Origin: Parvularia atlantis
Taxonomy: Eukaryota; Opisthokonta; Rotosphaerida
Assembly (NCBI GenBank): GCA_943704415.1
Contig: CALSCO010000436.1
Coordinates: 1-23,949, forward strand
Direction of reading: 5' to 3'
Length of the DNA stretch: 23,949 bases
Shown: piece by piece, positions 1-19,552 of the stretch
Layout: each line of letters starts with the position of its first letter
How positions within the stretch are numbered: position 1 is the first letter of the stretch
Program-made: the position numbers and the translations under genes
The notes under the pieces: generated by a model
The model's input: only the letters and a program-made list of their open reading frames with translations
What the model was told of the DNA's origin: nothing
Databases searched by the model: none

Positions 1-1707
1 CCCCCCCCCCCCCCCCCCCCCGGCGGCGCTCACACGCGGCGCGGCGCGGCGCAGCATCAAGGCGATCGACAACCTCAACCAGGTCCTGGGCTACATCGGC
101 AAGCAGATGGACCTCAAGCTCGTCAACGTCTCGGCCGAGGACTTTGCCGACCACAACGCCAAGATCATCCTCGGCGTGATCTACCTGTGCGTCGCCGCGA
201 CCGCGCACGCGCCCGCTAACCCTGCGTGCGCAGCCTGTACAAGAAGCTCATGATCAAGACGATCGCCTCGGGCGGCAAGACGGCCGAGGAGGCGCTGATG
301 CTCTGGGTGCGCGAGAAGGTGCGCCCGTACGGCATCAAGATCGACAGCTACAAGACCAGCTTTGACGACGGTGCCGCTGCTGTGCGGCCGTGCGGGGCGG
401 AGCTGACACGGCCCGCTCGCCAGGCCGCGCGTTCCTCGCGCTCGTTGACGACTACGTCGAGGACAAGAGCAAGTTTGACTTTGCCAAGGCGCGGCCGCCA
501 CGCGCTGCGCCAGATGCGGCTGATGCGGTGGCGTGTCGGTTAGGCGGCGGGCCTGGACGCGCGCGCAAACCTCGAGAAGGCGTTCTCGTCGGCGCAGACG
601 CTGATGGGCGTGCCGCGCGTACTGGAGCCGCAGGACTTTGGCGAGGGCGTGACGGACGAGCGCGGCGTGATCATCGGTGCGCGCGCCACACAATGGTGCG
701 CTCGCACGCGGCCTGAGACGACGCGCGGTCTGCAGCGCTCTCGACCTACTTCCACGCGTTCAAGCTGGGCGAAAAGGAGCGCGAGAACGCGCGCAAGATG
801 CGCCTGCTGCAGAAGCAGCTGGACGAGCAGAACAAGGTGCGGGTGTGGGTGTTGGCTGTGCGCGTGCCGATGCGCGCATCCGCGCCAGCACATGGAGAGC
901 TCGGCGGCCGAGCTGGACCGGCTGCGCCGCGAGCTCGAGGATCAGAAGGCGCGCGTGCAGCCGGCGGATGTGTGGAACGCGTACCGCAACAACATGTCGG
1001 GCCACGCCCCGCCCGACTTCTCGATCCCGTTCAGCGTGGAGGAGAACGTGCTCGGGACCAGGTTTACGGCACGCGCGTCCTTTCGAACGCACAGTGTGCC
1101 TCGCTGACGCGGCCGCCGCGTGCCGCAGAGCTACCACATCCGCGTCGCCTGCGCTGACAAGGTCTGGGCGGTCAAGCGGCGCTACAGCGACTTTGACAAG
1201 CTGATGGAGAAGGTGCGCAACGAGGGGGGGGGGGACGGCTCTGCGCGGCACCGTTGCTGAGCGCGTTGCCGCAGATGAGCCGCGAGCTCAGGCGGCAGAT
1301 CGTGTCGCCCAAGCTGCCGCCCAAGCGCATGGTGGTGCGTGCGTGCTCGGCGCGTCGAGGCGACCGCGGCGTGCTGATGCGGCGACGGCCAGGGCAACCT
1401 CGACCTGGAGTTTGTCAACTCGCGCCGCGAGGCGCTTGAGGCGTTCCTGCGCGACGTCATTCGCAGCCACGCCGACCTGGCGCGCTCGGACGCGTTCGGT
1501 GCGGGCGTGCATGGGGTGGACGTGCGGGGCTGACGGCCACTGTGCTCAGCCGACTTTGTCAGCCGCGACACGATCAAGCAGCTGATTGACACGCCCACGT
1601 TTAAGAAGCGCGAGCGCGAGAAGCTCGACAAGGTGTTCAAGAGCCAGGCCGCGTCGCTCGGCGGCTCCGCGGGCGCAGCTGCCGAGGGGGCTACCGAAGA
1701 CGACTGA
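1..1707 (+). CDS. Tandem CH-domain and PX-domain protein (5' end missing)
   Basis: Probably links actin filaments to phosphoinositide membranes. Positions 22-54 are the end of an intron and coding starts at 55. Exons: 55-186, 234-370, 424-488, 544-676, 736-836, 889-1061, 1131-1212, 1275-1334, 1393-1498, 1550-1707. They give 381 residues in frame. The first part is the end of a first calponin-homology domain (NLNQVLGYI, NAKIILGVIY), then a full actinin-type second CH domain (TAEEALMLWVREKV, SFDDGRAFLALVDDY, ANLEKAF, STYFHAF). A charged coiled coil follows (KMRLLQKQLDEQ, AELDRLRRELED). The C-terminus is a PX domain with RRYSDF, LPPKRM and GNLDLEFVNSRREALEAFL. The intron at 489-543 has a GC donor (AAG|GCGCGG). 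The intron at 1062-1130 could instead run 1048-1128. Actin and phosphoinositide binding are inferred from the domains. The missing N-terminus would hold the rest of CH1. Confidence 0.85.
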
Positions 1708-2878: not shown

Positions 2879-5140
2879 TCACTTGCCCTTGGCCGCCGCC
2901 GTCTGCTGCGCGTGCTCCTCCACGATGCGCTTGAACGGCAGCGCGCCCGGGCGTAGCGTGCGCTGCGGCACGCGCGCGTGAGCGACGCGCTGCACCGACA
3001 GGGGCGCGCCGCGGCACCTTTTGCGTCGCAAAGTCGACCTCGTACAGGCCGAAGCGCATCGAGTAGCCGCTGCGATTGCGCGCGTGTCAGCCGCTCTCGT
3101 CCGCCCGCGCACGCTCGTTGCACGCACGCGCTCCACTCAAAGTTATCCATGAGCGACCAGTAAAAGTAGCCGCGGCAGTCGACGCCGTCGCGGATCGCGC
3201 GCGAGACCGCGTACAAATACCGGCGGATGAACAGCGCGCGGCGGTCGTCGGCCGCGTCGGCCAAGCCGTTCTCGGTCACGATCACGGGCACGCCGATTGT
3301 CGAGATGAGCTGCGCAGACGGTCAGCGCGGCAGCGAGTAGGGGCCTGCGCGTGCGGACCTTGAGCGCGCGGTAGATGCCCTCGGGGTACAGCGGGTAGTC
3401 CATGTCGGTCATGAGAGCTGGTGCGGGAGCACGCGGGTCAGGTCGTACACCGCATCGCAGGCGTGAGCGCACCGCCGGGAGCGTGCACAAACGTGAACGG
3501 CTCGCTCAAGTTGAGCTGCACCTTAACTTGGTAGTGCGAGTAGTAGTTGAGGCCGACAAAGTCGTTCGAGTTGACCGCCCTGATTTCCGCGCGCGGGACG
3601 GTGTCAGAGCTGCTGTGCGCGCGTGCGAGAGCGCGTGCGCACTTGGCGTTGTAATGGTACACCGACGCGGTCAGGATGCGCGCGCGGAAGTGGCCAGTGC
3701 GGAAGAAGTTGATCACGGACAGGTTGAACACGCTGTGCAGCACGTCGGCCAGGTAACGCTCGAACGGGTTCCTGCCCCGCGACACTACCGTCAGGGTATG
3801 CGCGCAGAGGCAGGAGGCCACACCAGTCGTTCGCCGGCTCGAAGAAGAAGATGTTCTTGACGATGCCCACCTTGGCCTCCTCGCCGCCCGGCAGCGCTGT
3901 GTCGCCGACGGTCAGCCTCAGTGCACGCTCAAGCCGTCGCCGCACCCTTGATCGCGTGGTAAGTCTGAACGTGCGCCTCGCACAGGTTGCGCAGGTGCGT
4001 CGCGGCCAGCTGCCAGTCCTGCGGGCCATGCGGGTTGGGCACAAGCGAGCGCCACGCGGCCGCCTCACCTGCTTGCCCGGCGGCATGTCACCCATGAAGT
4101 AGCCGCCCGACGTGATCACCTCGGGCTCGTTGATCGTCATCCAGTACTTGACCTGCGCGGCCGGACGTGGGTGAGCCATGTGCGTGCCGCGCAGGCACAC
4201 ATGCCGCGCACCTTGCCGCCAAACTCGGCGAAGGCGCGCTTGCAGTACTCGACAAACAGCTCGATGTTTTCCTCCTTCTCAAACGCGCCGCGCTCCTGTG
4301 CCGCACGTGTGAGCAGGCGAGCCGGCGGTGTGCCGGCCGGCGCACCTGGAACCAGGTCGGGTTGGTGAAGTGGTGCAGCGTCACGAACGGCGTCAGCTTG
4401 GCCGCGAGCAGCTTGTCGATCTCGGTGTGGTAGTGCGCGGCGACGTCCTGGCGCGCCCCGATGTGAGCAAGCGGGTGAAGACAGCGCGTGCGCCACCTTG
4501 TCCCACGCGCCCGCCGTCGGCTGCAGCTTGCTCCACTCGATCGAGAAGCGGTACGCGTTCACGCCGAGCTCCTTCATCAGCGCGATGTCCTGGGCGGGCC
4601 TGTGTCAGCATCGACCGCGTGCGCGCGTATGCACCTCGTCCACGCGGTTCCAGTGGTCGCACGCGACCATCGCCGAGTCGCCGCGACTGCGCCCGCGCCC
4701 GCCACCGTGAGCGGACGTGCCACGCGCAGCACGCGCCCCGCGCGCCCCACGCACTCGACGCGCGGCGTGCCGTCGGGCTTCTTGCTGCGCTCCCACTGCG
4801 CCCAGTTGTTGTTGGTGCAGTTGCCCTCGATCTGCGCGCACACGAGTAAGACCCACGCGAGCGCGGCCGCCCGTGCACCTGGTGCGCCGCCGTCGCCGTG
4901 CCCCACCAGAAGCCCGGCGGGAATGCGACGTCGTCCGGGTTGATGCGCTCGCGCGGCTTCTGCCCGTTGTCCCAGACCCAGTGCAGGCTGCGGACGTGCT
5001 CAGGCGCACGCGCACGCGCACGCGCACACGTACCGCTTCGCCTGCGACGCGCGCGCGTAGTACGCGTTCACAGCGCCCAGTACGACCGCGGCGCTGACCA
5101 GCGCAGGCAACGGGTTCGCTGCCAGAGCGGCGACGTCCAT
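2879..5140 (-). CDS. Glycoside hydrolase family 1 beta-glucosidase, membrane-anchored
   Basis: Retaining beta-glycosidase of family GH1. Sixteen exons in minus order: 5140-5034, 4987-4879, 4831-4755, 4686-4635, 4589-4497, 4447-4346, 4295-4212, 4152-4069, 4018-3946, 3896-3824, 3771-3643, 3579-3473, 3417-3359, 3309-3128, 3069-3018, 2962-2879. They sum to 1467 nt, or 488 residues, the usual size of one GH1 domain. Signature parts: FPPGFWWGTATAAHQIEG at the start of the barrel, ACDHWNRVDEDIALMKELG, YRFSIEWSKLQP, TLHHFTNP, the acid/base in TINEPE (Glu217), the nucleophile in VIVTENGLA (Glu396), then YFYWSLMDNFEWSAGY and RFGLYEVDF. A hydrophobic stretch at residues 10-28 before the barrel suggests a signal anchor. 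Substrate range cannot be read from sequence. The start codon is 110 nt from the divergent msrA start. All fifteen introns are 45-68 nt with GT donors. Confidence 0.95.
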
Positions 5141-5250
5141 CGTGGCGGTGCGAGTGTCGAGCACTGTGACAGCTCGAACGTCAGCCGCGCTGCAGCTTTT
5201 GAAGGACGCGCGGCACACTTTCTGCGCCGCCAGCCCCCTCACGCCCCTCG
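5141..5250. promoter_or_regulatory. Divergent promoter gap, beta-glucosidase / msrA
   Basis: The 110 nt between the two start codons must carry the promoters and 5' UTRs of both genes. I see no TATA box. The only A/T-richer patch is cagcttttgaagg near 5195-5207. Confidence 0.5.
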
Positions 5251-5938
5251 ATGCCCCTCGCCACGGCGCGCCGCGAGTCGATCGCCACGCTCGCCATGGG
5301 CTGATTCTGGGGGCCGCAGGACATCTACGACAACGGTGCGCCTACCGCGCTCGCGCGCCGCGCGCCAGCGGCTCACGCTCGGGCGCAGTCGAGGGTGTCC
5401 TGCGCACCGAGGTCGGCTACACCGGCGGCACGACACCCGCGCCGACGTACCACGACCTCGCGGACCACACCGAGAGCATCCGCGTGTGGTTCGACCCGGA
5501 CCGCGTCAGCTACGCCAAGATCCTGGACGTGTTCTGGCGCAACCACTCGCCCACGTCCAAGGTGCGCGTGCGTGCGTGCTTGCTTACGTCATGGCCGCTC
5601 AGACGGCGTGCGCGTGCGCAGGGACACACGCAGTACATGTCGGCCATTTTCTGCAGCGACGCCGAGCAGCTGGCCGAGGCGCTCAAGTCGCGCAACAGCC
5701 AGCCGAACGCCGAGCGGGTGCGCTGCGCTGCGGCGCGTGTTGTGCGCGCGCGAGGCTGACGCGGCCGGCGCCCCGATGCAGATTAAGACGCGCATCGAGC
5801 TTGCCAAGCACTGGACGCCGGCCGAGGAGGTGTGCGCGTGTGCTGTGCGAAGTGCGCCGGTCGCTGACGGTCGGGCGCGCGCAGTATCACCAGAAGTACT
5901 ACGAGAAGCACAACTACGGCCATGCCTGCCGCCGCTGA
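5251..5938 (+). CDS. msrA: Selenoprotein peptide-methionine (S)-S-oxide reductase, Sec at the active site
   Basis: MsrA reduces methionine-S-sulfoxide in proteins and free methionine. Exons 5251-5335, 5389-5561, 5622-5717, 5782-5829 and 5885-5938 give 151 residues. The catalytic motif, GCFWG in nearly all MsrA, is here GGC TGA TTC TGG GGG: the nucleophilic cysteine codon is an in-frame TGA at 5302-5304 (residue 18). The rest of the protein is intact: TEVGYTGG, TYHDLADHTESIRVWFDP, ILDVFWRNHSPT, QYMSAIF, TPAEEYHQKYYEKHNYG, and a C-terminal Cys (HACRR) that could resolve the selenenylsulfide. No GT or GC donor lets an intron remove the TGA alone. TGA is the ordinary stop in neighbouring genes. 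A SECIS-like hairpin follows the final stop. Selenocysteine MsrA is known from Chlamydomonas and a few other protists. A pseudogene with one nonsense change is the alternative, but it fits poorly with the position of the codon and with the hairpin. Confidence 0.9.
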
Positions 5939-5961
5939 GGCCGCCTTCCCGTGTTCACCCA

Positions 5962-6043
5962 GCATGCCGCATGACGCTGCCCCTCCGTCAAAGCCCGCGG
6001 TCACATCGACCGTCGGGGCGGGGGGTGGCCGACCGTCGCGCGC
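5962..6043 (+). promoter_or_regulatory. Candidate type II SECIS element in the msrA 3' UTR
   Basis: ATGAC at 5971-5975 faces CGAC at 6030-6033, the tandem G.A/A.G quartet of eukaryotic SECIS elements. Between them 5976-5985 pairs with 6020-6029 (10 bp, with three G.U pairs). A 5' bulge at 5986-5992 then contains AAA (5990-5992), the unpaired adenosines expected above helix II. A second stem follows: 5993-5996 with 6016-6019, and 5998-6002 with 6008-6012, closed by a 5-nt loop. A weak helix I can form from 5962-5967 and 6038-6043. The spacing from quartet to AAA is 14 nt, slightly long. The pairing was done by eye. Confidence 0.7.
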
Positions 6044-6098
6044 CCTCACCGGGCCCGACCGTGCGTGACTGTATGTGTACACCTGGGATCGAGCGCTG

Positions 6099-6907
6099 TC
6101 ACGAGTCGCGCTCGCCAAAGACAAAGGTGAACGTCACGCGCGCCAGCGACTCGCCCTCGCCGCCCAGCAGCTGCACCGGCACCTGCTCGGTGTACACGCC
6201 CGTGCTTGGCCCTGCGCGCCGATGGGTGCACAATGCGTGCACGTTGCCGCGCAGTCGCCCCAGCCGCTCGACCTGCACGGCCTTGGGTACGGCGCGCTGG
6301 CCGGGCTCGGCCTGGCCCATCACCTGCGTGCAGACACGTCGGCGGTTCAGCGAACGTCTCGCTCAGCGCGCACACATGCAGGCACCTGCAGGACCGCCGC
6401 CAGCTCGGCCAGTGAGACGAGCGCGCCGTACGACACGGTGCGGTAGATGTTGTACGTGCTGGTGCTCGCCTACGCGCGCGTGCGTGTGCGGGATGAGACG
6501 AGGGCGTGGCGCGCGCTGAGCCGCACCCGCATCACAAGGTGCACACCGCGCCCCGAGATATCGCGCACCTCGCACGGCACGCTCAGGCTGTGCGGGCTCG
6601 ACAAGTGCAGGATGCGCCGGAACAACCACCATCCAAGCGGCAGCCCGTGCAGGCGCTGCCAGATGACGCGCACGTTGGCCCGCCCCCGCACGGCGTAGAG
6701 CCCGATCTTGGCGCGCGGCAGGTTGAGCTCACGCAGCGCACCCGCGCGCGAAAAAAAAAAAAAAACGCGCACCGCGAGCGGGTACAGCGCCAGCAGGCCC
6801 AAGATCGTCAGCACCTGCTGCGCCGACAGGCCCGACAGGTGCAGCAGCGCCGCGGCCAGGTCCGTCGCCGCGTGCAGCAGCGCGATGGCGGCGCGCTCGA
6901 GCGTCAT
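6099..6907 (-). CDS. Hotdog-fold thioesterase-like protein (DUF4442/4HBT type)
   Basis: Exons 6907-6773, 6706-6527, 6469-6386 and 6323-6099 give 207 residues ending in TGA. The N-terminus is hydrophobic (AAIALLHAATDLAAALLHL, LTILGLLALYPLA) and probably membrane-associated. The body has the layout of a hotdog domain: IYRTVSYGALVSLAELAAVLQV corresponds to the N-x-G-T-v-x-x-G-A-L-x-x-L-A-E-x-A helix of DUF4442-type thioesterases. VERLGRLRGNVHA and a final EGESLARVTFTFVF strand follow. Substrate is unknown; acyl-CoA is inferred from the fold. The first intron (6707-6772) contains a run of 15 A on the plus strand. Its acceptor was chosen because CTCAAC lies 14 nt upstream; an alternative acceptor at 6728 also keeps frame. 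Its start is 25 nt from that of the THEM6-like gene, also a hotdog protein. Confidence 0.65.
6751..6765. repeat. A15 homopolymer inside an intron
   Basis: Fifteen A on the plus strand (a T tract in the transcript) lie just after the donor of the first intron of the minus-strand hotdog gene, in an otherwise very GC-rich setting. Confidence 0.9.
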
Positions 6908-6932
6908 TTTTCGATACGCGCAGGAAAAAAAA
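6908..6932. promoter_or_regulatory. 25-nt divergent gap between two hotdog genes
   Basis: Only 25 nt separate the two start codons, ending in nine A directly before the plus-strand ATG. Promoter elements must overlap the 5' coding ends, or one true start lies further inside. Confidence 0.45.
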
Positions 6933-7724
6933 ATGCTGCTGTATCTGCTGCGCAACGCCCGCGTGCTCCTGCGCGCGCAGGGCACGCCGCGCGTGGCGCT
7001 CAACGACGAGTCGGTCATCGTCGAGCGCGTGCGCCTGACCGACCTCGACTACAACCTGTGCGGGCGCGATCGCGCGATGCCGCTCAACCGACACGACGCG
7101 CTGCGCGCAGGCACATGAACAACGCGCGCTACCTCGAGGCGTTTGAGATGGGCCGGCTGGACCAGATCGCGCGCTCGGGCGTGCTGCAGCTCATGCTCAA
7201 CGACAAGCTCATGCCCGTCGTCGGCTCGATCGACGTGCGCTTCATGCACCAGATGCGCTACGGCCAGCGCTTCGCCGTGCACTCGCGGCTGGTGCGGCGC
7301 GGCGCATGCCGTCTGCTTCTGCACCGACGCTGATGGGTGCGCAGGATGGCTGGGACGACCGCTGGTTCTTCCTCAGCCAAAGCATGACGACCGTGCACGA
7401 CGGCAAGCTCGCCGCGACGGCCTTTGTGCGCGCGGCCTTCCTGCGCAAGAACCGCATCGTCGTCCCGACCGAGATCCTGACGCAGCTTGGCATCGAGGCC
7501 GAGGCTCGGCGCATGCCCGAGGCGATCCAGGTACGTTCCCCTCCTTCGCGATGGTTGGCAGGGTGACACGTGTGTGTGTGTGTGTGTGCGCGCGCGCGCG
7601 CGCGCGGCAGGCGTTCGAGACGGCCGAGAACAACATCCACAAGCTGCTGCGCCAGCACACGCACTATGACCCACACGCGCACCAGCACCAGCACGGCGCA
7701 GGCGCGGGCAAGCACAAGCACTGA
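6933..7724 (+). CDS. THEM6-like thioesterase superfamily protein
   Basis: Exons 6933-7057, 7111-7291, 7345-7530 and 7611-7724 give 201 residues. The order matches animal THEM6: a short hydrophobic N-terminus (MLLYLLRNARVLL), the hotdog signature DLDYNLHMNNARYLEAFEMGRLD, then GSIDVRFMHQMRYGQRF, GWDDRWFFLSQSM and LAATAFVRAAFLRKN. The asparagine/aspartate core of the D-x-N-x-H-M-N-N motif is intact. THEM6 is an ER-membrane protein with a 4HBT fold and poorly known substrate. The C-terminus here is a histidine-rich tail (HTHYDPHAHQHQHG...HKH) that might bind metal; that is inference only. The third intron (7531-7610) is 80 nt because it carries a TG/CG dinucleotide tract. The stop is 35 nt from the convergent gene's stop. 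Confidence 0.88.
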
Positions 7725-7759: not shown

Positions 7760-8496
7760 CTAGAGCACAAGGTCCTCGTTGTCGGGCAGGTCGTCGTACA
7801 CGACCACGCCCGTGTCGTTGTGCCCGTGCGTGACCAGGTGGTACTGCGCACCCATCTGCGCCAGCGCGTAGGACGAGTGCATGACCGTGTTGCCGACGTC
7901 GTCCACGAGCATGACGTACTCGACCTGCGCCGCGTCAGCAACATTCGTTTTTGCGAGCGCACACACGCACGCACCTCCCAGTGCACCGGGCCGTCAAACT
8001 CGGGCAGCGTCATGTGCGAGCACACGCGCTCAAAGCGCTCGGCCGGCGTCCCGGGCACAAACGACGCCACGGCGGGCTCCCAGAAGTGCGGCGCCGTGCT
8101 GCGCATCTGCGAGCGCACACGTGTCACCCACGCCGTCACCACACAAAAGAAAGCTGCGGCGCACCCTCAGATGGCTCACGAGCATACCCTGGTGCGAAAG
8201 GCGAGTCAGCCACGAGACGCACAAGCATGGCACCGCACCGGCTGAGTGCCTCTGCTGAGCCCGCTCGGCAGGTCCTCGATCGCGATGCACACGTGCGGCC
8301 CCGGCGCGTGCTTGCCCGTGGCCGCATCGGCGTAATACACGCGCGGCACAAATAGCAGCTCAAGCAGCACGGGCGGCACAACGTCCACCGGCGCGTTGAT
8401 CACCATGAACGTGTGCACAAGCTCGTGCTGGCGCATCCCGGCCGCGTAGGACACCAGCTCGGGCAGTCGCTCGTCTGCACGCATGCGCATCAGCCG

Positions 8497-8547
<51 letters not shown>

Positions 8548-9097
8548 AGCAGTGCGACAAACCTCCACCGAGCGTCACCTGCTCGATCGTCCACACGCCG
8601 TTCGCGTTGGCCACCGGCAGCTCCACGCTCGCCGTGCACATCAGCTTGCTGTTCTGCACGACCGCGTCGCACTCGACCACGCGCGGCATCCGCTGCGGGC
8701 CCGTCACGGTCAGGCTCGCCGGCAGAGTCGCTCGCGTGGCCACCACGTCCGCCGGCCCCTCAAACACGACTGGCGCGCGCAAGCTCAGCCCCGTGCAAAC
8801 ACGCGCAGCAGCAGCATGCACGCACGCGTGATCGTCACGACCGGGTGCAGCGCCACGTCTTCGGGCTGACGCGGCCCGCGCGGCGCCGTGTGCGGACGCG
8901 GCGTCGGCAGGCGCTGCAGTTGGCGGTAGTCGGCGATGGCCGGGTGCGCGGCGACGGCCGTCAGCACTACATCTGGCCCCTGCGGGTCCGCGTGTCGGCG
9001 CCACGGTGCACATGGGCGGCAGGCGCACCGGCTCGGCCGCGACGACGAGCGCCGCCGCGACGAGCACCCAGAGCGTGACGAGCAGCCATCGTGTCAT
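7760..9097 (-). CDS. Secreted protein of unknown function, beta-rich
   Basis: Seven exons (9097-9029, 8979-8826, 8769-8563, 8474-8239, 8188-8165, 8106-7975, 7924-7760) give 328 residues ending in TAG. The N-terminus is a clear signal peptide (MTRWLLVTLWVLVAAALVVAAEP). There is no C-terminal membrane segment, so secretion is likely. The body is made of hydrophobic strands typical of beta-sandwich domains: VTITLVFEGPADV, ASLTVTG, GVWTIEQVTLGG, LVHTFMVINAP. A C-terminal block reads VHWEVEYVMLVDDVGNTV...YALAQMGAQYHLV. That D-x-x-G-N...L-x-x-G pattern recalls repeated extracellular domains of social amoebae, a weak resemblance. I do not recognise the family. One exon is only 24 nt. The start is 22 nt from the USP5-like start. 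Confidence 0.7.
8499..8540. repeat. (GT)21 microsatellite within an intron
   Basis: Twenty-one GT units run from 8499 to 8540, then a short CG tract. They lie inside the intron 8475-8562 of the minus-strand secreted-protein gene, between donor and branch site, and make it the longest intron of that gene (88 nt). Confidence 0.95.
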
Positions 9098-9119: not shown

Positions 9120-12100
9120 ATGGCGGCGGACGAGGAAGTTGCGCGCCGTCTGCAAGGCCAGCTGGGCCGCCTGCGTGTGCCGCAGCGCACGGACCGTGTG
9201 TACAAGGATGAGTGCGTGCTGTCGTTCGACACGCCGGCCAACGCGCCCGCGGGCGTCTTTATCAAGTGCGCTCGCCGCTGTCGCCGATGCGTGAACGTCT
9301 GGCTGGCTGACGTGCGCCAACGTCAGCCTCGGCACGTTCCTCGCGTACGGCGAGGCACACGTGCGCCGCGACTACGAGCGCACGGGCAACGTCGCGTACC
9401 TCAACTGGCGCCGCGTGCCGCTGCCCAAGGCCGATGTGCCCGTGCGCCCCGCGCTCGGCTTGCGCGTCGCCGCTGACGACAGCTCAGGACGGCCCGCCCG
9501 AGAAGCGCCCGAAGCAGCTCGCCATCGGCGGCGCGGACGGCTTCCAGGTGCACACGGACCAGGTGCGCACCGCGCAGGCTGTGCACACCCGCACGGCTCA
9601 CGCGCACGGCATGGCAGCCCAAGTATATGGACGTGTGGTCGGTCCGGCTCATGCCCGACCTGTACGAGGTGCCCCTGCCGGACACGCAGCACTGCCTGCC
9701 GACGCTGCTGCAGGCGCGCATCCACTGCGGTCGGCCGCGTCGCCTGACGAACGGGCGCGCAGATGGTCGTCGACGCGGTCGTCGCCGCCGACAGCGCCAC
9801 CAAGCAGGAGGACGTCAAGGCGTGGGTGGCCGATAAGCGCATCGTGTCGCCGTGCGTAATGCGCGCCCGCCGACAGCTGGGCACGCAGACTGACCGCCCA
9901 CGCAGGATCGCCCTGTCGCTGCAGCAACTCGACAACGGCGTGCGCATCCCGCCGACCGGCTGGAAGTGCGCCAACTGCGACTTGACCGTGCGCCGCGCTG
10001 CACCGCGCGCACGCGCTCGTGCTCACGCGCGCTGTGCAGGAAAATCTGTGGCTCAACCTGACCGACGGCACGATTTTGTGCGGCCGGCGCAACTGGGACG
10101 GCAGCGGCGGCAACGGCCACGCGCTCGAGGTTGTGCACGTGCGCGCTTGGTCGCGACATGGGCGCTGAGCGGTGCATGCGCACACGCAGCACTACAACCG
10201 CACCAGGAACCCGCTCTGCGTCAAACTCGGCACGATCGACTCGAGCGGCCACCCGGACGTGTACTCATACGCGGAGGACGACATGGTCGAGGACCCGCTG
10301 ATCGCGCAAGTGCGCGGTGCCGTGCGCCATTGCTCCGCTGACCCGGCCGTGTGCAGCATCTCAAGCACTTTGGTATCGACATGGCCGCCATGAGCAAGAC
10401 CGAAAAGGTGCGCTGCGGTGCGCATGAGGCGACGCCGCGCCTGACGATGCGTGCGCGTGCCGCCAGTCGATCGCCGAGCTCGAGATCGACCAGAACCTCA
10501 AATTTGAGTTCCGGCTCATCCAGGAGGCTGGCAAGCAGCTTGTGCCGGTGGCCGGCCCCGGGTACGCAGAGCGCGCGCGGGCGGCACTGGGGCTGCGTCT
10601 GAGCGACGCGCGGTGCAGGCTCACGGGCATGGAGAACCTGGGCAACAGCTGCTTCCTGTCGTCGGTGATGCAGGTGCTGTTTGCGCTGCCGCCGTTCCAG
10701 CGGCGTTACTTTGAGCCGGCCGAGAAGATCCTCAACCAGTGCGCCGTTACGCCCCGCTTTCTGCCGTTCGCGGCTGACCGTGCGCGAACGGCAAGGCTGC
10801 CGGCCGACCCGACCGAGAGCCTGAATGTGCAGCTGGCCAAGCTGGCCGTGGGCCTGCTGAGCGGGCGCTACTCGTCGACGTGCGCTGCTGCCTGTCGGTG
10901 CAGTGTCACGGCCGCCTGAGAGCGACGCCGGGCGCGCAGCGACACGACGGGCATCGCGCCGCGCATGTTCAAGAACCTGATCGGCAAGGGCCACCACGAG
11001 TTTTCGACCATGCGTCAGCAGGACGGTGCGTGCGCACGGCTGCGCTGTGTGGTGCGCGGCTCACCTGGCGCGACGTGCAAGCGATGGAGTTCTTCCAGCA
11101 CCTGCTCAGCGTGGTCGAACGGCAGCACCGCGCCGACGACAACGCGGCCGAGGACCCCTCGCGCGTGTTTAAGTTTGATGTGGAGGACCGCGTGCAGTGC
11201 CTCGTGTCTAACAAGGCGCGACCGTACGGCCAGCTCGCGTGCAACCGCGGGCTGACAGCACCACGTGTGCGGCGACGCAGGTATCGTACAAGAAGCGCCA
11301 CGACAACCACTTGAGCCTGCCCGTGCCGCTCGAGGCCGCGATCAACCGCGCCGAGGTCGAGCAGTTCAAGATGATCCCGGCCGAGGAGGCCAAGAAGATC
11401 CCGTGGGACCAGTGGGTGCGGCCGATCGTGCCGCTGCAGGCCTGCCTGGAGGCGATGGCGGCCAACGAGCTCATCCCGGACTTTTTCAGCACGGCGACGG
11501 GCGCGAAGGGTGCGGGCGCGCACACCCGTGACTTGCCGCGCGGCAGCTCACAGCGCACAGGCCCCGCCAGCAAGACCATGCGCTTGGCGACCTTCCCGCC
11601 GTACCTGATGCTGCACATCCGCAAGTTTACCACGAGCGCCGACTGGACCCCCGTCAAGATCGACGTGCGCATCCAGGTGAACGGCGCCCACTGCGCGCGG
11701 GGCAGCGCTGACGCGGGCGGGCGGTGGCGCAGGTGCCGGACGAGATCGACCTCGAGTGGCTGCGCGGCCGCGGCCAGCAGCCGGGCGAGGAGCTACTGCC
11801 GGTGCGCCGCCTCTCCGCGATGCTGTGTGTGCTTCACAACTCACCCGATTGCAGGAGACCGCGCCCACCACGGCTGCGGCCGCGCCCGCCGTGTCGCAGC
11901 TGGCACCGGACGCCTCGCTTGTCGCGCAGCTGGTGCGTTCTCTCGCAGCGCACGGTGGCGCGCCGCTCAAGCAGGCTTCGCTCAGATCGAGATGGGCTTC
12001 GCACCCGAGGGCTGCAAGAAGGCCGCGTTCCACACGCAGAACCGCGGCGTGGAGGAGGCGATGAACTGGATCCTCGAGCACATGGAAGACGGCGACTTTG

Positions 12101-12728
12101 CCACGCCGTTTGTGATGCCGCAGGCGAGCGGTGCGGCGCCGACGGCCGTGGCCTTGGACGAGGGCAGCGTTGAGATGCTCATGGCCATGGGCTTTGCACG
12201 CGAGCACGCGATCAAGGGTGCGTGCACTGCGCACGCGAGCCAGGGCGCGGCTGACCCATTGTGACGCGTTGGGCGTGCAGCGCTCAAGGCGACCGACAAC
12301 AACCTCGAGCGCGCGGGCGACTGGCTGCTCAGCCGCGCCGACACGCTCGACACGATGATGGTGCGCTCGCGCAGGCCGCGTGCGCTCGCTGCTTGCTCAA
12401 CCCGCGCGTGCAGGACGACGCCGTCGCCGCCCCGGCCGAGGCGGGCACCGTTGCCGGTGCGGTCGGCAGGCCCTCGCTGTTTGACGGCCCGGGCCGCTAT
12501 CGCCTCAAGGCGTTCATCAGCCACATGGGGCCGAGCACGTCGTCGGGCCACTACGTGTGCCACATCCGCAAGGAGGTGCGATCGCGCGCATCTTGCCGGC
12601 GCCGTGCTGACCCCCGCCCCCCCGCGCGCGCGCAGGGCCGCTGGGTCTTCTTCAACGACAGCAAGGTGGCGCTGTCGGAGGACCCGCCGCGCGAGTACGC
12701 GTACCTATACCTCTACGAGCGCGTCTGA
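9120..12728 (+). CDS. USP5: Ubiquitin carboxyl-terminal hydrolase, USP5/isopeptidase T type
   Basis: Disassembles unanchored polyubiquitin chains. Twenty-two exons: 9120-9265, 9327-9435, 9488-9562, 9618-9713, 9763-9851, 9906-9987, 10040-10129, 10190-10309, 10357-10407, 10467-10561, 10619-10738, 10796-10879, 10940-11025, 11082-11215, 11281-11509, 11561-11676, 11733-11801, 11855-11932, 11986-12217, 12281-12360, 12414-12575, 12636-12728. They total 811 residues and match human USP5 along the whole length. Domains: N-terminal variant zinc finger ([21 protein letters not shown]), ZnF-UBP ([24 protein letters not shown]), Cys box [20 protein letters not shown] (Cys329), [12 protein letters not shown], two UBA domains ([27 protein letters not shown]), His box (His773 in SSGHYVCHI) and FFNDSKV (Asp789). 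Two introns, 9714-9762 and 11216-11280, have GC donors. Intron 10739-10795 and intron 11026-11081 end in AAG. Confidence 0.97.
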
Positions 12729-12773: not shown

Positions 12774-12930
12774 GAGCGCGTCTGACTGATGGCTTCTCTG
12801 TGTGTGTGTACAGCGTCGCTTGACAATCGAAACTCATCCGCTTAGTACACCATGCGATGCATCCGAATGTTCCCGCTCGCTCACTCGCTCGCTCACTCGC
12901 GCCTCGCCTCGCCACGCAGCCCATCCAGCC

Positions 12931-13322
12931 ATGATCGAGATTACGTGCAACGACCGCCTCGGCAAGAAGGTCCGCATCAAGGCCAAGTGCGTGCGCGCGC
13001 CGCGCCCCCGCCCGCGCGCTGCGGCCGATGACGTGCGCGCAGCCCGGACGACACGGTCGGCGACCTCAAGAAGATGATCGCGGCGCAGACCGGCACCGCG
13101 CCCGATAAGATCGTGCTCAAAAAGTGGTGCGTGCGCGCCGCGCGCGCGTGCCCCCTCGACGTGCGGGCGAACTCAGGCGCGCCGCAGGTACACCGTCTAC
13201 AAGGACCACATCACCCTCGCCGACTGTGCGTCGATGCGCATCACGCTTCGCCGCTGACACACGCCGCGCCCCGCGCAGACGAGATCCACGACGGGATGAA
13301 CCTGGAGCTGTACTACGCGTGA
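12931..13322 (+). CDS. UBL5: Ubiquitin-like splicing modifier Hub1/UBL5
   Basis: Exons 12931-12986, 13043-13126, 13188-13225 and 13279-13322 give 73 residues, exactly the length of human UBL5, with near-identical sequence: [69 protein letters not shown]. Hub1 binds spliceosomal proteins (Snu66, Prp38) without covalent conjugation. The ending is the usual double tyrosine plus one residue, with no diglycine. The three introns are 53-61 nt. The upstream gap of 202 nt after the USP5-like gene holds a CTCACTCG-type short direct repeat at about 12874-12901 just before the start codon. Confidence 0.98.
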
Positions 13323-13356: not shown

Positions 13357-16300
13357 CTACGATGCGGCGGCGGCGGCGCGCGGTGGCGGCGCTCGGCGGC
13401 GGGTGGGGCTGCTGCTACCCGGCGGCGGCGGCTGGGCGGGCGGGGCGGGCGCGGCGCTCGTGCTCGCGTACTCGAGCAGGTCCGGGCTGCGCGCGTGCAC
13501 ACCCGGTCAGCACGGGGGGGTTGCGCGGCGTGTGCCGAACAACGCACGCATCGCCGTCGTCGGCCTCGTCGCCAGCGTCGTCCGCATCGGCACCGAGGTC
13601 GGCCAAGCGCGGCAGGTCAAGCAGAGGCACGCTGCTGGCCCGGTCGACGCCCTTGCGTGCCTTCTTCTTGACCTTGTTCTTGGACCGGGTGCTGGGCGCG
13701 AGCGGCCCGCTGTCCACCGTCGCTCGCCGCCGGGCTGCTGCGGGCGACAGCGCTTGCCGTGGCGCTGCTTCTGGCTGCGGCGGTGACGGCGCTGGTGTGA
13801 CCGCGGGCTCAGGCTCGGGCGGTGGCGCTGCTGCCGGTGACGGTGCAGCCGCCGGCTCTGGCGCGACGGCAGCGGGCGGCGAGGCGACGGCAGCGGGCGG
13901 CGAGGCGACGGCAGCGGGTGGGGCCAGTACAACCGTCACGAGGGGCGGCGACACGCCCGGCGACGACAACTTGCCGCTCTGCCGCACGGTCAGCACGCGG
14001 GTGAAAGCCGAGCGCACGCTCGCGCACCGTCGCCACGCGCGACGCAAACATGTCGCGCAGCAGCGTCGAGGACGACGGCCGGCGCGACGGCGCGGCCCAA
14101 GCGCTGTCCACGGCCGGCCGCGACGACGGTTCGCCATCGCTCGGTTCGCGCACGTGCTCGGGGATGTTGCCCGCGCTCGCGTTCGCGCCGTCCGACAGCA
14201 CGCGCCGCGCCGCGTTGTCGCTCTGCCGCGTCATGCCGTCCCACGACATGTTGCGCAGCAGCGGCGGGCGGCGTGGCTTGGTCTGCAAAGGACGCGTGCT
14301 CAGATGTCGCACTGGCGCTGGCATCGCGTGCACGCACCGCTAGTTCGTAGACCGACTGCACGCGCGGCTTGGAGGGCGACAGCCGCGGCGACGACGACGA
14401 CGCGCGCAGCATGGGCTCGCGGTCGCTCGTCTCGTCGTCGTCGCGCCTGATCGCAGCGGGCTGTCAGGCGCGGCAGCGCGATCGCCGGGCACGCACGACG
14501 TCGGCAGCCGGTTGGCCAGGTTCTCGATCGTCCCAAGCGCGCGCCGGAACTGCTGCCGCACCGTGCTCGCGGCCCGGTTCGCCCTTGCAGCACGCACAGT
14601 GGTCAGCGGCGTCGCCAGGAGCGGCACAGACCGCGCGCACCACGTCCGTTCGCCGGATGACATGCTGGCCTGGTCCGCCGCGCTCACTCGCCCGTGCGAC
14701 ATCATCTGGCGTCGCACAGTCAGCAGCCTTCAGCGCCGCACACCGCGCCGCGGCGCACCAGGTCGGCGGCGGCGCTGCCAGACGTGCCAAACAGCGACCG
14801 CATGAGGTCTGTTGCGCGCGCGTTAAGTCAGCGCGGCTGCACTGCGCACGCAGCACGCGCAGCCGCACTCGTAAAGTCGCTCCGGCCGGTCTCGGGCAGG
14901 GGCGCGTTGGCGTTGCTCGACGCGGCCGCGAGCTGCTGGAGCCGGCCCATCGCCTCCGTGTACGCCTGCAGCCGCGTCACGAACGAGTCGCGGTCGTGGA
15001 AGGGTGCCGGAGCCAGGCGCGCCGACTGGACCAAATCGAGCGACGTCGCCGTGGCCTCGCCCGCCGCTTCCTGTGCGGTGCGACGTCATGAGCGTGTGCG
15101 GTCCAGCCGCGCGGCAAGGGCGCTGCGGCACCTGGATCGCCTGCAGGCGCTGCGTCGCGAGCTCGATGAGACCCCTGAGCAGGCGCTCCTCGGCCGACGC
15201 GACTGCGCGGGGCGTGAGTAGCGCGCTGCACAGTGACAGGGCGGCACGGCACCGGTGAGCGGTGCGCTGGCCGCCGCGCTCGCATGGGCGTGCATGTCCT
15301 CGTCCTCCTGCGCACAAACGGGCTGAGTTGCCGTCTTCGCCTCATTCGTGGCAGCGACGGCGCACGTAGACAAAGTCGAGGTCGCTGGGCCAATCGCCAA
15401 TGTCAAACACCTTGAGCGTCTTGAGCAGGCCGATTCGCCACGGCAGGCGGCGCAGCGCCAGGTTGCCGCGCACGTGGATCTCCTGCAGGCTGCGCATCGT
15501 GCCTGCGCGGGAGGGCTCAGCTGCCAGCCCCGACCCGGCCGCAGCGACCGCACCGAGCGACACGGGCAGGCTCGTGAGCTCGTTGTGCGAGAGCTTGAGG
15601 ATGCGCAGGTTGTGCATGCTCCCGATCTCGTCCGGGATCGTCTTGAGCTGCGCCGCCAGGCCTTCAGCAGGCAATACATGCGTGCGTGCGTGCGTGATGC
15701 GTGCCTTGTTGTGCTCGACCGACAGCACCTGCAACCGCGTGAGCAGGCAGATGGCCGGCGGCAGGTCGACCATCTGCGCAGCCGTCGTCAGCTCTGAGGC
15801 GTGCAGCCCGCGCACACGCCAGGCGCGCCTCGTTGCCGTCGTAGATCAGCGCCGTGAGGTTAGACAGGTTGAAAAAGCGCGGCGGGAGCTCGTTCAGCCG
15901 GACGTTATGCGACGCGTCGAGGCTGCGCAGCAGCGGGAATCGCTTGCCAAACTTGCTGATGAGCTCGGCCTGCGCCCGGTCAGCCGCCACGCGCCGGTCG
16001 GCGCGCAGCCAGTACACGCACGAGCTGGTTCCGGTCGAGCGTGAGCACCTCAAGCTTGCTCAGGCGCTGGACGCTGTCCGGCAGGTGTTCCATCGCGTTG
16101 CCCGTCAGCCTCAGCACTGCGCCGCGCGCCCGTGTCAGCCTGCGCACGCATCGGCTGCGGCCAGGCATGCACCGCGCAGCCGTTCGAGCTTGCCGATCTC
16201 GCTCGGCAGGGCGCACAGCCGGTTGCAGCACAGGTTGAGCTCCTGCAGGCTGCCGAGCGCGCCAACGTCGGGCGTGATGGTCAAGAGGCTGTTGTCTGCG

Positions 16301-17598
16301 GTGCCGGGTGGCATGAGCCGTGGCACAGCCACGCAGCGAGCGCGCACTGTTCAGCGACAGCTTGACGAGCCGGTTCACGGCCGCAAACAGGCGGTTGGGC
16401 AGCGCCGCCAGGTGGTTGTGGTGCAGCTCGAGCGTCAGCAGCTTGCTGAGCCGCGTGAACGACGGCGGCAGGGCGCTGCAGCGACGCGCCGGCGTGAGCG
16501 CAGCACGCACGCACGCACGCCCCCCGCGCCCGTACACGAGGCTGTTGTGCGCAAACGAGACGTGGAACAGGCGCTCGAGCGCGCCGATGTCGGCGGGCAG
16601 GTCGCACAGTCTGTTCCCGGCGACCTGTTGCGGGCGCGCCAGCGTGAGGCGGCAATGTGTGTGCGCGCAGACACGGCCCCTCACCTGCAGGACCATGAGC
16701 TTGCGCAGCAGGCAGATCGAGTCCGGCAGCTCCTCGAGCAGGTTGTCGGTTAGGTACAGCTGGGTTAGGTGCGCGAGCAGCCCAAAGTCATCCGGCAGCA
16801 TCCGCAGCTGGTTGCCCGTCAGGCTGAGCACCGAGAGGCTGCGCAGCCGCGAGAACTCCTGCGCGGCGGCCGGTGAGACGCCGCGCGCGAGGCAGAGCTG
16901 CCGCGCACCTGCGGCAGGAACGTGAGACGGTTGTTGTACGCGTACAGCTCACGCAGGCGCGCCAGCTTGGCGACCTGTGCATCCGCGCGGCGTGAGTGCC
17001 GGCCGCGCGGGTGCGGTGCGGTGCGGTGCGGTGCTGTGTGCGCCCACCTCGAGCGGGAGGTACTCGAGGCAGTTGTTGCCGACGTTGAGCCGCTCGAGCG
17101 CGCGAAGCTTGCGCAGGCCGGCCGGCAGGCGCAGCAGGGCGTTGTCGTTGGTCTCGAGGCGGCGCAGCTGCGTCACCCGCCCGAGCTCCTCCGGCAGCGC
17201 CTCGAGCTGGTTGTGGTCCAGGTGCAGCTCGGTCAAGCGCGTCATGCGCCCGATCAGCCCCGGCACGGCCGTGAGCTCGTTGTGGTCGAGCGCGAGCGGG
17301 CCGTGGTGGTGCTCGTACTGCGCGCCGCACGTCAGCCCCCGGCCGCGCACCGAGCGCCGCGCACCCGCGCCAGCAGCGCCAGCCACGGCAGCTCCCAGGC
17401 CGGGTCGGGCGTCTCGCGTGGCGGGCTGAACGCGGCGAGGCGCAGCGAGCGCCAGCGCAGCAGCGCGGCGAAGCCGCGGGCCAGCGCGCCGCGCGCCACC
17501 GGCGGCGCCTCGGCGGGCGCGGGTGACGCGGGCGAGGCCGGCGGGCTCGCCTCGACCTCGGAGCCGCGCGGCGACCGCGCCTCGTGCGGCGTCGACAT
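13357..17598 (-). CDS. Large leucine-rich-repeat protein with Pro/Ala/Ser-rich tail
   Basis: Twenty-two exons in minus order: 17598-17365, 17317-17048, 16974-16909, 16858-16685, 16624-16536, 16475-16348, 16295-16173, 16116-16022, 15969-15829, 15773-15705, 15647-15554, 15502-15366, 15307-15253, 15202-15132, 15070-14869, 14808-14759, 14705-14641, 14583-14497, 14446-14338, 14282-14028, 13978-13548, 13486-13357. They total 3075 nt and 1024 residues. Residues 1-78 are low-complexity. About 79-540 form some 19 LRRs of about 23 residues with the Shoc2/LAP-type pattern (LTELHLDHNQLEALPEELGRV, LSLTGNQLRMLPDDFGLL), so a protein-binding scaffold. Residues 541-1024 hold a helical part (AEERLLRGLIELATQRLQAIQ, DRDSFVTRLQAYTEAMGRL), basic/Ser-rich segments and a Pro-Ala stretch with SPPAAVA repeats. 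No transmembrane segment, kinase or GTPase motif is seen. Introns 15774-15828 and 15648-15704 have GC donors. Partners are unknown. Confidence 0.85.
13861..13919. repeat. 21-bp tandem repeat coding for SPPAAVA
   Basis: Two full copies (13861-13881, 13882-13902) and a third partial copy keep the reading frame of the LRR protein on the minus strand and encode repeated SPPAAVA. Confidence 0.85.
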
Positions 17599-17614: not shown

Positions 17615-19552
17615 ATGACGGCGGCACGCGCGGCGTTCGCGGTCGCACTCGGCTGGGCCGCGCTGTGTGCGGGCGAGCGCTGGCTGCGGCGCGCACGCCC
17701 GACCCTTGCCGAGCTGCTCGAGCGCCACGGCGTGCAGCTCAGCCCTGGCTACGTCGGGTGGCGCTCGGCGCGCGTCGGCGAGTGGCTCGGCGCGCTGCAC
17801 TCGCGCGGACCCGGACGACTGCTGCGCGTGCGCTGCCGGGTGTCGCGACCGGTGGTGTCGGGCGGCTGACGCACGCGCGCGCGCGTGCACGCCACAGGGC
17901 TTCTACGCCGCGGGCGCGTGGTTCGGCCTCGTCGCGATGACCGTGTCGATCGTGCTGCTGGCGGCGGCGCTCGTGACGCAGTTCACGCGCCCGGCCGACG
18001 AGCAGGTCCTCACGCCCGTCGTGCGTCACCCTGCACACGTCGCGCGCGCACACACACACACAGACACACCGCAGCTCACACCACGCGACAGCTGCCGGGC
18101 GTCAACCTGCCAATGGACCGGCTTGGTTACTTCCTCCTCGGCCTGATCGTCAGCGGCGTCGTGCACGAAGCCGGGCACGCGATGGCCGCCGGGTGGTGCG
18201 CGCGCGCGCGCTGTGGCCACGACACGGGCCATGTCGACGTGACACACCGCGCGCACAGCCAGGACGTGCCGGTGCTCGGCTTTGGCGTGTTCCTGTACGT
18301 GATCTACCCGGGCGCGTACGTCGATCTGGCGGACAACGAGCTGCAACGGCTGCCTCCCGCGGCGCAGGCGAGCGAGTGCGCGGTCGTGCGGCACGTCTGA
18401 ACGCGCAAGACGCGCAGATCCGCATCTTCTGCGCGGGCGTGTGGCACAATTTTGTGCTGTGCGTGCTCTGCGCGGTCGTGCTGGCCGGTATGAGTGTGCT
18501 GCTCTGGCCGCTGTACGCGCTGCCGAACGCGGGCGCGACGGTCGTGTGGCTGGACGAGGTGCGCGTGTGCGCGCGCGTGTGCGCGCACCGGCTGCCGACC
18601 GCGCAGCACAGCGCTCGCCCATGCTCGGCAGCCTCGCAGTCGGCTCGGTCGTGCGGCGCGTCAACGGCTGTGACGTGCACAACACGCGCGACTGGACCGC
18701 GTGCATGCTGCAGACGTGCGTTTGTGCGGTGCTGGGCCGCCCCGGCCTTACTGGCTGCGCGACAGCGTGCAGCACGAGTCCGGCTCCGGCTTCTGTCTCG
18801 CGCGCGGCAAGGTCGAGGGTGCGTGCGCGGGGCGTCGCACAGCTTGCCGTGGCTGAGCCGGCGGTGCAGACATGTTCCCGCAGACCGTGTACAGCTGCTG
18901 CGACGCGGACGGGGACGACGGCGCCGTGCTCGCGTCGTCTGTGTGCTTCCGCAGCACTGACATGTCAACCGAGGCCGCGCGGTTCTGCTTGCCCGTGCGG
19001 CAGATCGTCGGCAACCGCGCGTGCACGGCCGACGCCGACTGCAGCGACGAGGCGTGCCTGGTACCAAGCCTGCCGCCTGGCGAGCGGCTCGTCGCACTCA
19101 AGCTGCAGGACGAGCCCGTGGCGCTGTTTGTGGGCGACCCGCGGTGCGCGTGCGCGTGCGCTGCGTGCTTTGCTGATTATCGTTGCAGCGCGTTGTACCA
19201 GACGTCCCTGCTGACCGACTACCGCCCGCGGCACTGGCTGCTGCCCGTGACTGGTCCGCTCCAGGCCGAGCTGGCGCTGCAGTGCGTGACTCTCTGGCGG
19301 GCGCGCATCGCGCTCACCGGCCCGCCCGTCGCGTGCAGGTACACGCTATCAATGTCGCTCGCGCTGGCCGTGCTCAACATGGTGCCGGCGTACGCGCTCG
19401 ACGGGCAGCACGTGCTGCAGGCGCTTGTGCAGCTGCACTGCGGGCACTGGGACGTGGCGCGGCAGGCGGCGCTCACGACGGCGGTGCTGCGCGCGGGCTC
19501 GGCGCTCTTTGGCACGCTGCTCGTCGTCTCGCTCTGGAACGCGCTTGCATGA
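17615..19552 (+). CDS. MBTPS2: Membrane-bound site-2 protease (S2P)
   Basis: Intramembrane zinc metalloprotease that releases membrane-tethered transcription factors after a site-1 cut. Exons 17615-17827, 17898-18020, 18092-18192, 18259-18367, 18418-18558, 18612-18715, 18766-18818, 18870-19143, 19189-19281 and 19339-19552 give 474 residues and align along all of human MBTPS2. The zinc motif is VVHEAGH (residues 137-141), followed by GFGVFLYVIYPGAYVDL and IRIFCAGVWHNFVL. A PDZ-like lumenal loop rich in cysteine comes next (SCC, ACTADADCSDEACLVPSLPPGERL). The second metal site is NMVPAYALDGQH (Asn417, Pro420, Asp425). The long Ser run of the human protein is absent. Intron 18368-18417 has a GC donor (CAG|GCGAGC); without it the alignment to LQ...QIRIFCAG fails. 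Substrates cannot be told from this window. Confidence 0.95.

Follow-up and report, generated by a model that had tools for sequence, protein, structure and literature searches.

A probable selenocysteine codon at the catalytic position of a eukaryotic MsrA gene

Does an in-frame TGA at the catalytic position of an otherwise intact gene encode selenocysteine (Sec), or does it reflect an error, a dying gene or a modified code? The question is raised by a locus in the window analysed here, by which we mean the whole stretch of 23,949 bases, with a GC content of 69.5% and eukaryotic genes with short introns. The locus matches methionine-S-sulfoxide reductase A (MsrA). From the sequence evidence presented below, we estimate at about 0.92 the probability that it is a nuclear MsrA gene of a GC-rich eukaryote, whose UGA codon 18 is read as Sec. 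This was also the reading of the initial annotation; it is supported here, and two lines of evidence are added to it: the 3' flank can form a SECIS-like hairpin, and prokaryotic relatives have TGA at the same codon.

The MsrA gene and its internal TGA

Once joined, the exons of the MsrA gene (Table 1) form a frame of 456 nt, coding for 151 residues and ending with a TGA stop. The four introns, of 53, 60, 64 and 55 nt, are all of the GT...AG type and have compatible phases, and the GC content of the coding sequence at codon positions 1, 2 and 3 is 0.58, 0.47 and 0.93, respectively. The protein ends at residue 151 with a short tail, YGHACRR, which includes Cys149. With a Cys placed at the TGA, it matches PF01625 with an E-value of 4.4e-41 and 141.1 bits, for a curated cut-off of 23.7. 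The joined frame and this match show that the coordinates and the five phase-matched exons proposed initially were right. So was the assignment of the TGA to the nucleophile of the GCFWG motif: codon 18 is the sole in-frame internal stop of the gene, and a six-frame search of the window for G-x-F-W-[GSHT] gave a single match, at this very place.

Table 1. Coordinates of the MsrA gene, of the SECIS-like hairpin and of other features of the window
Feature	Coordinates	Strand	Description
MsrA gene	5251-5938	+	Five exons, GT-AG introns, 151 residues
MsrA exon 1	5251-5335	+	85 nt; start ATG; carries the predicted Sec codon; donor GTGCGC
Predicted Sec codon TGA	5302-5304	+	Residue 18, nucleophile of GUFWGPQ (MG-U-FWGPQ)
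MsrA exon 2	5389-5561	+	GT-AG, phase fits
MsrA exon 3	5622-5717	+	
MsrA exon 4	5782-5829	+	
MsrA exon 5	5885-5938	+	TGA stop 5936-5938; C-terminal Cys149 (candidate resolving cysteine)
SECIS-like hairpin	5971-6033	+	Begins 33 bases after the MsrA stop codon
Weak domain matches	53-211 and 1120-1236	+	Calponin-homology and PX domains, below curated cut-offs
Probable glycosyl hydrolase family 1 gene	3136-5001	-	Several exons, opposite strand, upstream of MsrA; one piece matches PF00232 below cut-off, another has no match
Thioesterase domain	7112-7294	+	4HBT_2, above cut-off
Dinucleotide run	~8490-8560		Long TG/CA run
Presumed USP5-like deubiquitinase	10464-12728	+	Two pieces match UCH and one UBA above cut-off; no match for 11254-11691
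Presumed UBL5/Hub1-like small ubiquitin-like protein	12928-13322	+	Recognized from the sequence; no Pfam match for the one piece tested
Leucine-rich-repeat protein	15363-17335	-	15363-15794 matches LRR_4 and LRR_8 above cut-off; remainder by eye
Site-2-protease-like M50 peptidase	17895-19552	+	One piece above Pfam cut-off, one below

A PDB search with the MsrA protein returned MsrA entries, corresponding to 30 distinct sequences. The top match (E 1.3e-34) is 4w8c, a form of the Clostridium oremlandii selenoprotein MsrA (CoMsrA) from which the helical domain was deleted (PMC4333827). The two proteins are 45% identical in a two-sequence alignment. Alignment with known Cys and Sec MsrAs had been proposed as a check, and the active-site residues described for CoMsrA, namely GCFWG, Tyr47, Glu55, Gln89, Tyr90, His137 and Tyr140 (PMC4333827), all find counterparts in the window protein: U18-F-W-G, Y49, E57, Q90, Y91, H136 and Y139 (numbering matched by hand), with the TGA at the nucleophile codon.

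The initial annotation had also pointed to splicing as a way in which the TGA could be lost from the transcript. An intron excising it is implausible. Within 90 nt on either side of TGA 5302, a search for GT...AG spans of 35-130 nt that would excise it in frame found none, and exon 1 holds a single GT upstream of the TGA (5277), whose sole in-frame AG partner up to ~5400 falls within exon 2.

A SECIS-like hairpin downstream of the stop codon

Eukaryotic Sec insertion would call for a SECIS element, which is expected to combine NTGA, AA (or CC) and GA in a foldable hairpin, and we found a candidate of this kind in the 3' flank. Its AUGA is at 5971-5974, and the quartet is formed by UGAC and CGAC (5972-5975/6030-6033). 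Helix II has 12 bp and one bulged U (5976-5988/6018-6029), followed by an unpaired AAA (5990-5992) and a mini-stem of 9 bp (5994-6002/6008-6017). With -36.6 kcal/mol, it has the lowest energy of all candidates that passed the scan on both strands of the window.

How often would such a structure arise by chance? The AA-type descriptor asked for [AG]TGA, 10-16 nt, AA, 15-44 nt and GA, with helix conditions. Its 10-16 limit had been widened to admit the hairpin already seen by eye. When the first 250, 500 or 1000 nt of the 3' flank were dinucleotide-shuffled 1000 times, this descriptor matched 0, 2 and 12 of the shuffles, respectively, and in no case at -30 kcal/mol or below. A broader descriptor (NTGA, AA or CC, 15-49 nt) matched 11 of 1000 shuffles of 5939-6098, including 2 at -25 or below (1 and 0 if AA alone was allowed). 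On shuffles of 5939-6938, the counts rose to 96 of 1000 and 8 (AA alone, 24 and 3).

The published SECIS rule sets 10-13 nt between AUGA and AA, and 15-39 nt for the second spacing (PMC2375036). In the hairpin these spacings are 15 nt and 39 nt, so that the first one is longer than the rule allows. A scan by the strict rule gave no candidate in 5939-6098, and its sole match in 5939-6938 was weak (-9.6, at 6664). Rfam reported no SECIS up to an E-value of 10 in 5200-6600, the sensitivity of its models to such elements being uncontrolled, and no family at all at gathering score in the entire window. Taken in its entirety, the 171-nt 3' flank shows no unusual stability when compared to its shuffles (z -0.70, 46 of 200 folding at least as well). 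The mini-stem resembles the long mini-stems described in SECIS elements of Ostreococcus and Chlamydomonas (PMC2375036), and SECISearch3 is reported to have predicted no SECIS for some of the selenoproteins proposed in algae, above all in Mamiellophyceae (PMC6627142).

Following the general eukaryotic mechanism, the hairpin would act as a SECIS in the 3' UTR and recruit SBP2 and eEFSec with Sec-tRNA, and UGA would then be read as Sec. An ARAGORN search of the window found no tRNA. MsrA chemistry, as described in PMC4333827 and PMC13188914, begins with an attack of the catalytic residue on the sulfoxide; once methionine has left, a second thiol resolves the sulfenic acid, and reduction follows. 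By analogy, Sec18 would attack the sulfoxide of oxidized methionine and release methionine. The selenenic acid may then be resolved by a thiol, perhaps Cys149, as its place at the C terminus suggests, and a donor of the thioredoxin or glutaredoxin type would then reduce the enzyme.

Prokaryotic relatives and alternative explanations

Relatives were collected by a scan of prokaryotic genomes, for which the window protein aligned with CoMsrA served as a query; of 573 confirmed stretches, the best 80 were retained. Two search patterns were used, one demanding Cys in GCFWG, the other demanding QYMS. Among these 80, the nucleophile codon is Cys in 71 and a stop in 9. In all nine, the stop is TGA and the frame is open on both sides. 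The 71:9 ratio is not a natural frequency, because one of the patterns demanded Cys and only the best 80 of 573 were kept. The TGA-bearing loci (L003, L004, L005, L012, L015, L022, L027, L037 and L079) are bacterial and belong to several phyla, their records being labelled Chloroflexi, Nitrospirae, UASB270, Planctomycetota (two), Actinobacteria, Syntrophobacteraceae, Thermoanaerobaculia and Anaerolineales. GUFW is followed by G in seven of them, by S in L004 and by T in L079. They share with the window protein the motif (G/A)DH(T/S/A)E, which is not so by construction, and QYMS, which is so by construction since it was a search pattern. Judged by eye, all nine extend for about 60 residues or more beyond YHQK, which fits a helical domain of the CoMsrA type. 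The highest identity to the window protein within the best 80 of 573, 53% over 134 columns, is that of L001, a Cys form from Ca. Peribacteraceae. A search of IMG/VR with the MsrA protein gave no match, and a profile search of the same database gave one distant locus, L081, 33% identical. Another search, made with a segment of the USP5-like gene and aimed at further contigs from the source organism, yielded no relative.

A tree was built, with the nucleophile masked, from 41 rows: the window protein, CoMsrA and 39 of the 80 loci, i.e. 6 of the 47 carrying LGCFWGPE and all 33 others. One branch, with 98/95 support, separates CoMsrA, all nine Sec forms and six Cys forms from the window protein and 24 Cys forms. 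Among groups of up to half the tree rows, none that contains the window protein is well supported. By path length, its nearest rows are L022, a Sec form (2.50), then L001 (2.52). Of the 38 inner branches, 26 are open, and in the label test 500 of 500 shuffles were as low. Taken with its unsettled bootstrap, the tree would argue against a simple transfer of the window gene from the bacterial Sec group.

Can the TGA be explained without Sec? A sequencing or assembly error turning TGC into TGA requires a single base, and the gene would then be an ordinary Cys-MsrA, as are 71 of the best 80 relatives, with L001, the most similar, among them. If codon 18 is taken as TGC, 57 single-base changes create a stop in the MsrA coding sequence, and one of the 57 lies at codon 18. 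If all 57 routes were equally likely, a nonsense mutation or read error arising by chance would fall on this codon in about 2% of cases, even before the SECIS-like hairpin and the relatives with TGA are taken into account. Such an error would turn the well-placed hairpin into a coincidence and would have to coexist with nine relatives having TGA at the same codon, and we regard it as improbable. A recent nonsense mutation, which would make the locus a dying pseudogene or a gene for a 17-residue peptide, draws on the fact that TGA serves as a normal stop in the window. It is even harder to reconcile with 151 codons and four introns devoid of any other stop or frame break, with the third-position GC of 0.93, and with a stop that falls on the single position at which a replacement of Cys by Sec is known. 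Sec is far likelier than mutation or read error, because the top structure match is the selenoprotein CoMsrA, 9 of the 80 relatives carry TGA and a SECIS-like hairpin is present.

The remaining alternative is that TGA is reassigned throughout the genome, or that a suppressor tRNA reads through it and inserts Cys or Trp. It would account for an in-frame codon within a conserved protein, and could also invoke two other in-frame TGAs located between coding-like stretches, at 1531 (+) and 22883 (-). These two are probably intronic, because in-frame GTG...CAG introns of the usual size can remove each of them, whereas no such removal is available for the MsrA TGA. Moreover, TGA closes the USP5-like (12726), UBL5-like (13320), M50-peptidase (19550) and MsrA (5936) frames, which are presumed, from homologues, to be true gene ends. 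Since TGA terminates neighbouring frames, as expected from the initial statement that it is a normal stop in this genome, it is not globally reassigned, and we give this alternative the least credit of all. The gene makes it very probable that the source eukaryote uses selenium and that it decodes UGA as Sec, and annotation pipelines that treat TGA as a stop only would truncate or miss the MsrA gene.

Comparison with known selenoprotein and Cys MsrAs

MsrA with Sec at its catalytic site is already well known from algae and marine invertebrates, as well as from some bacteria, and the window gene adds one sequence to the family. The initial annotation spoke of a few algae and protists, which was too narrow: MSRA is counted among the algal Sec proteins of widest distribution (PMC7539508), and Sec-MsrA is listed in five of six marine invertebrates (PMC3473315). 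An MsrA selenoprotein is also listed for two Ostreococcus species, Thalassiosira and Chlamydomonas (PMC2375036), and MsrA_b, a bacterium-like selenoprotein, for some green algae (PMC6627142). Knowledge of the selenoprotein MsrA family is thus unchanged, apart from this one more member, whose SECIS candidate is slightly unusual.

It is conceivable, though in our estimation unlikely, that the window gene is a eukaryotic Sec-MsrA whose origin is independent of the bacterial CoMsrA kind. It would then be a short, one-domain protein with a C-terminal Cys resolver, most similar to Cys-MsrAs of the Patescibacteria type, with a wide-spaced SECIS and possibly from a lineage in which no such gene was described before.

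Three kinds of MsrA can be set beside the window gene. CoMsrA and the nine TGA loci have, like it, TGA at the catalytic codon, and (G/A)DH(T/S/A)E in place of a longer loop before GHxE. Unlike CoMsrA, in which the C-terminal helical domain is essential (PMC4333827), the window protein lacks this domain and has a short tail with a Cys instead. The Cys-MsrAs of Patescibacteria-type genomes (L001 and L006) resemble the window protein in having no C-terminal extension; L001 has a terminal Cys close to the position of Cys149, whereas L006 has none, and both differ from it in being bacterial and in carrying Cys instead of Sec. Finally, the Sec-MsrAs of algae and marine invertebrates, as described in PMC2375036, PMC7539508 and PMC3473315 and compared by description, are like the window gene eukaryotic, with TGA at the catalytic codon and a 3' hairpin of the SECIS type, the 15 nt between AUGA and AA in the window exceeding the 10-13 nt used in PMC2375036.
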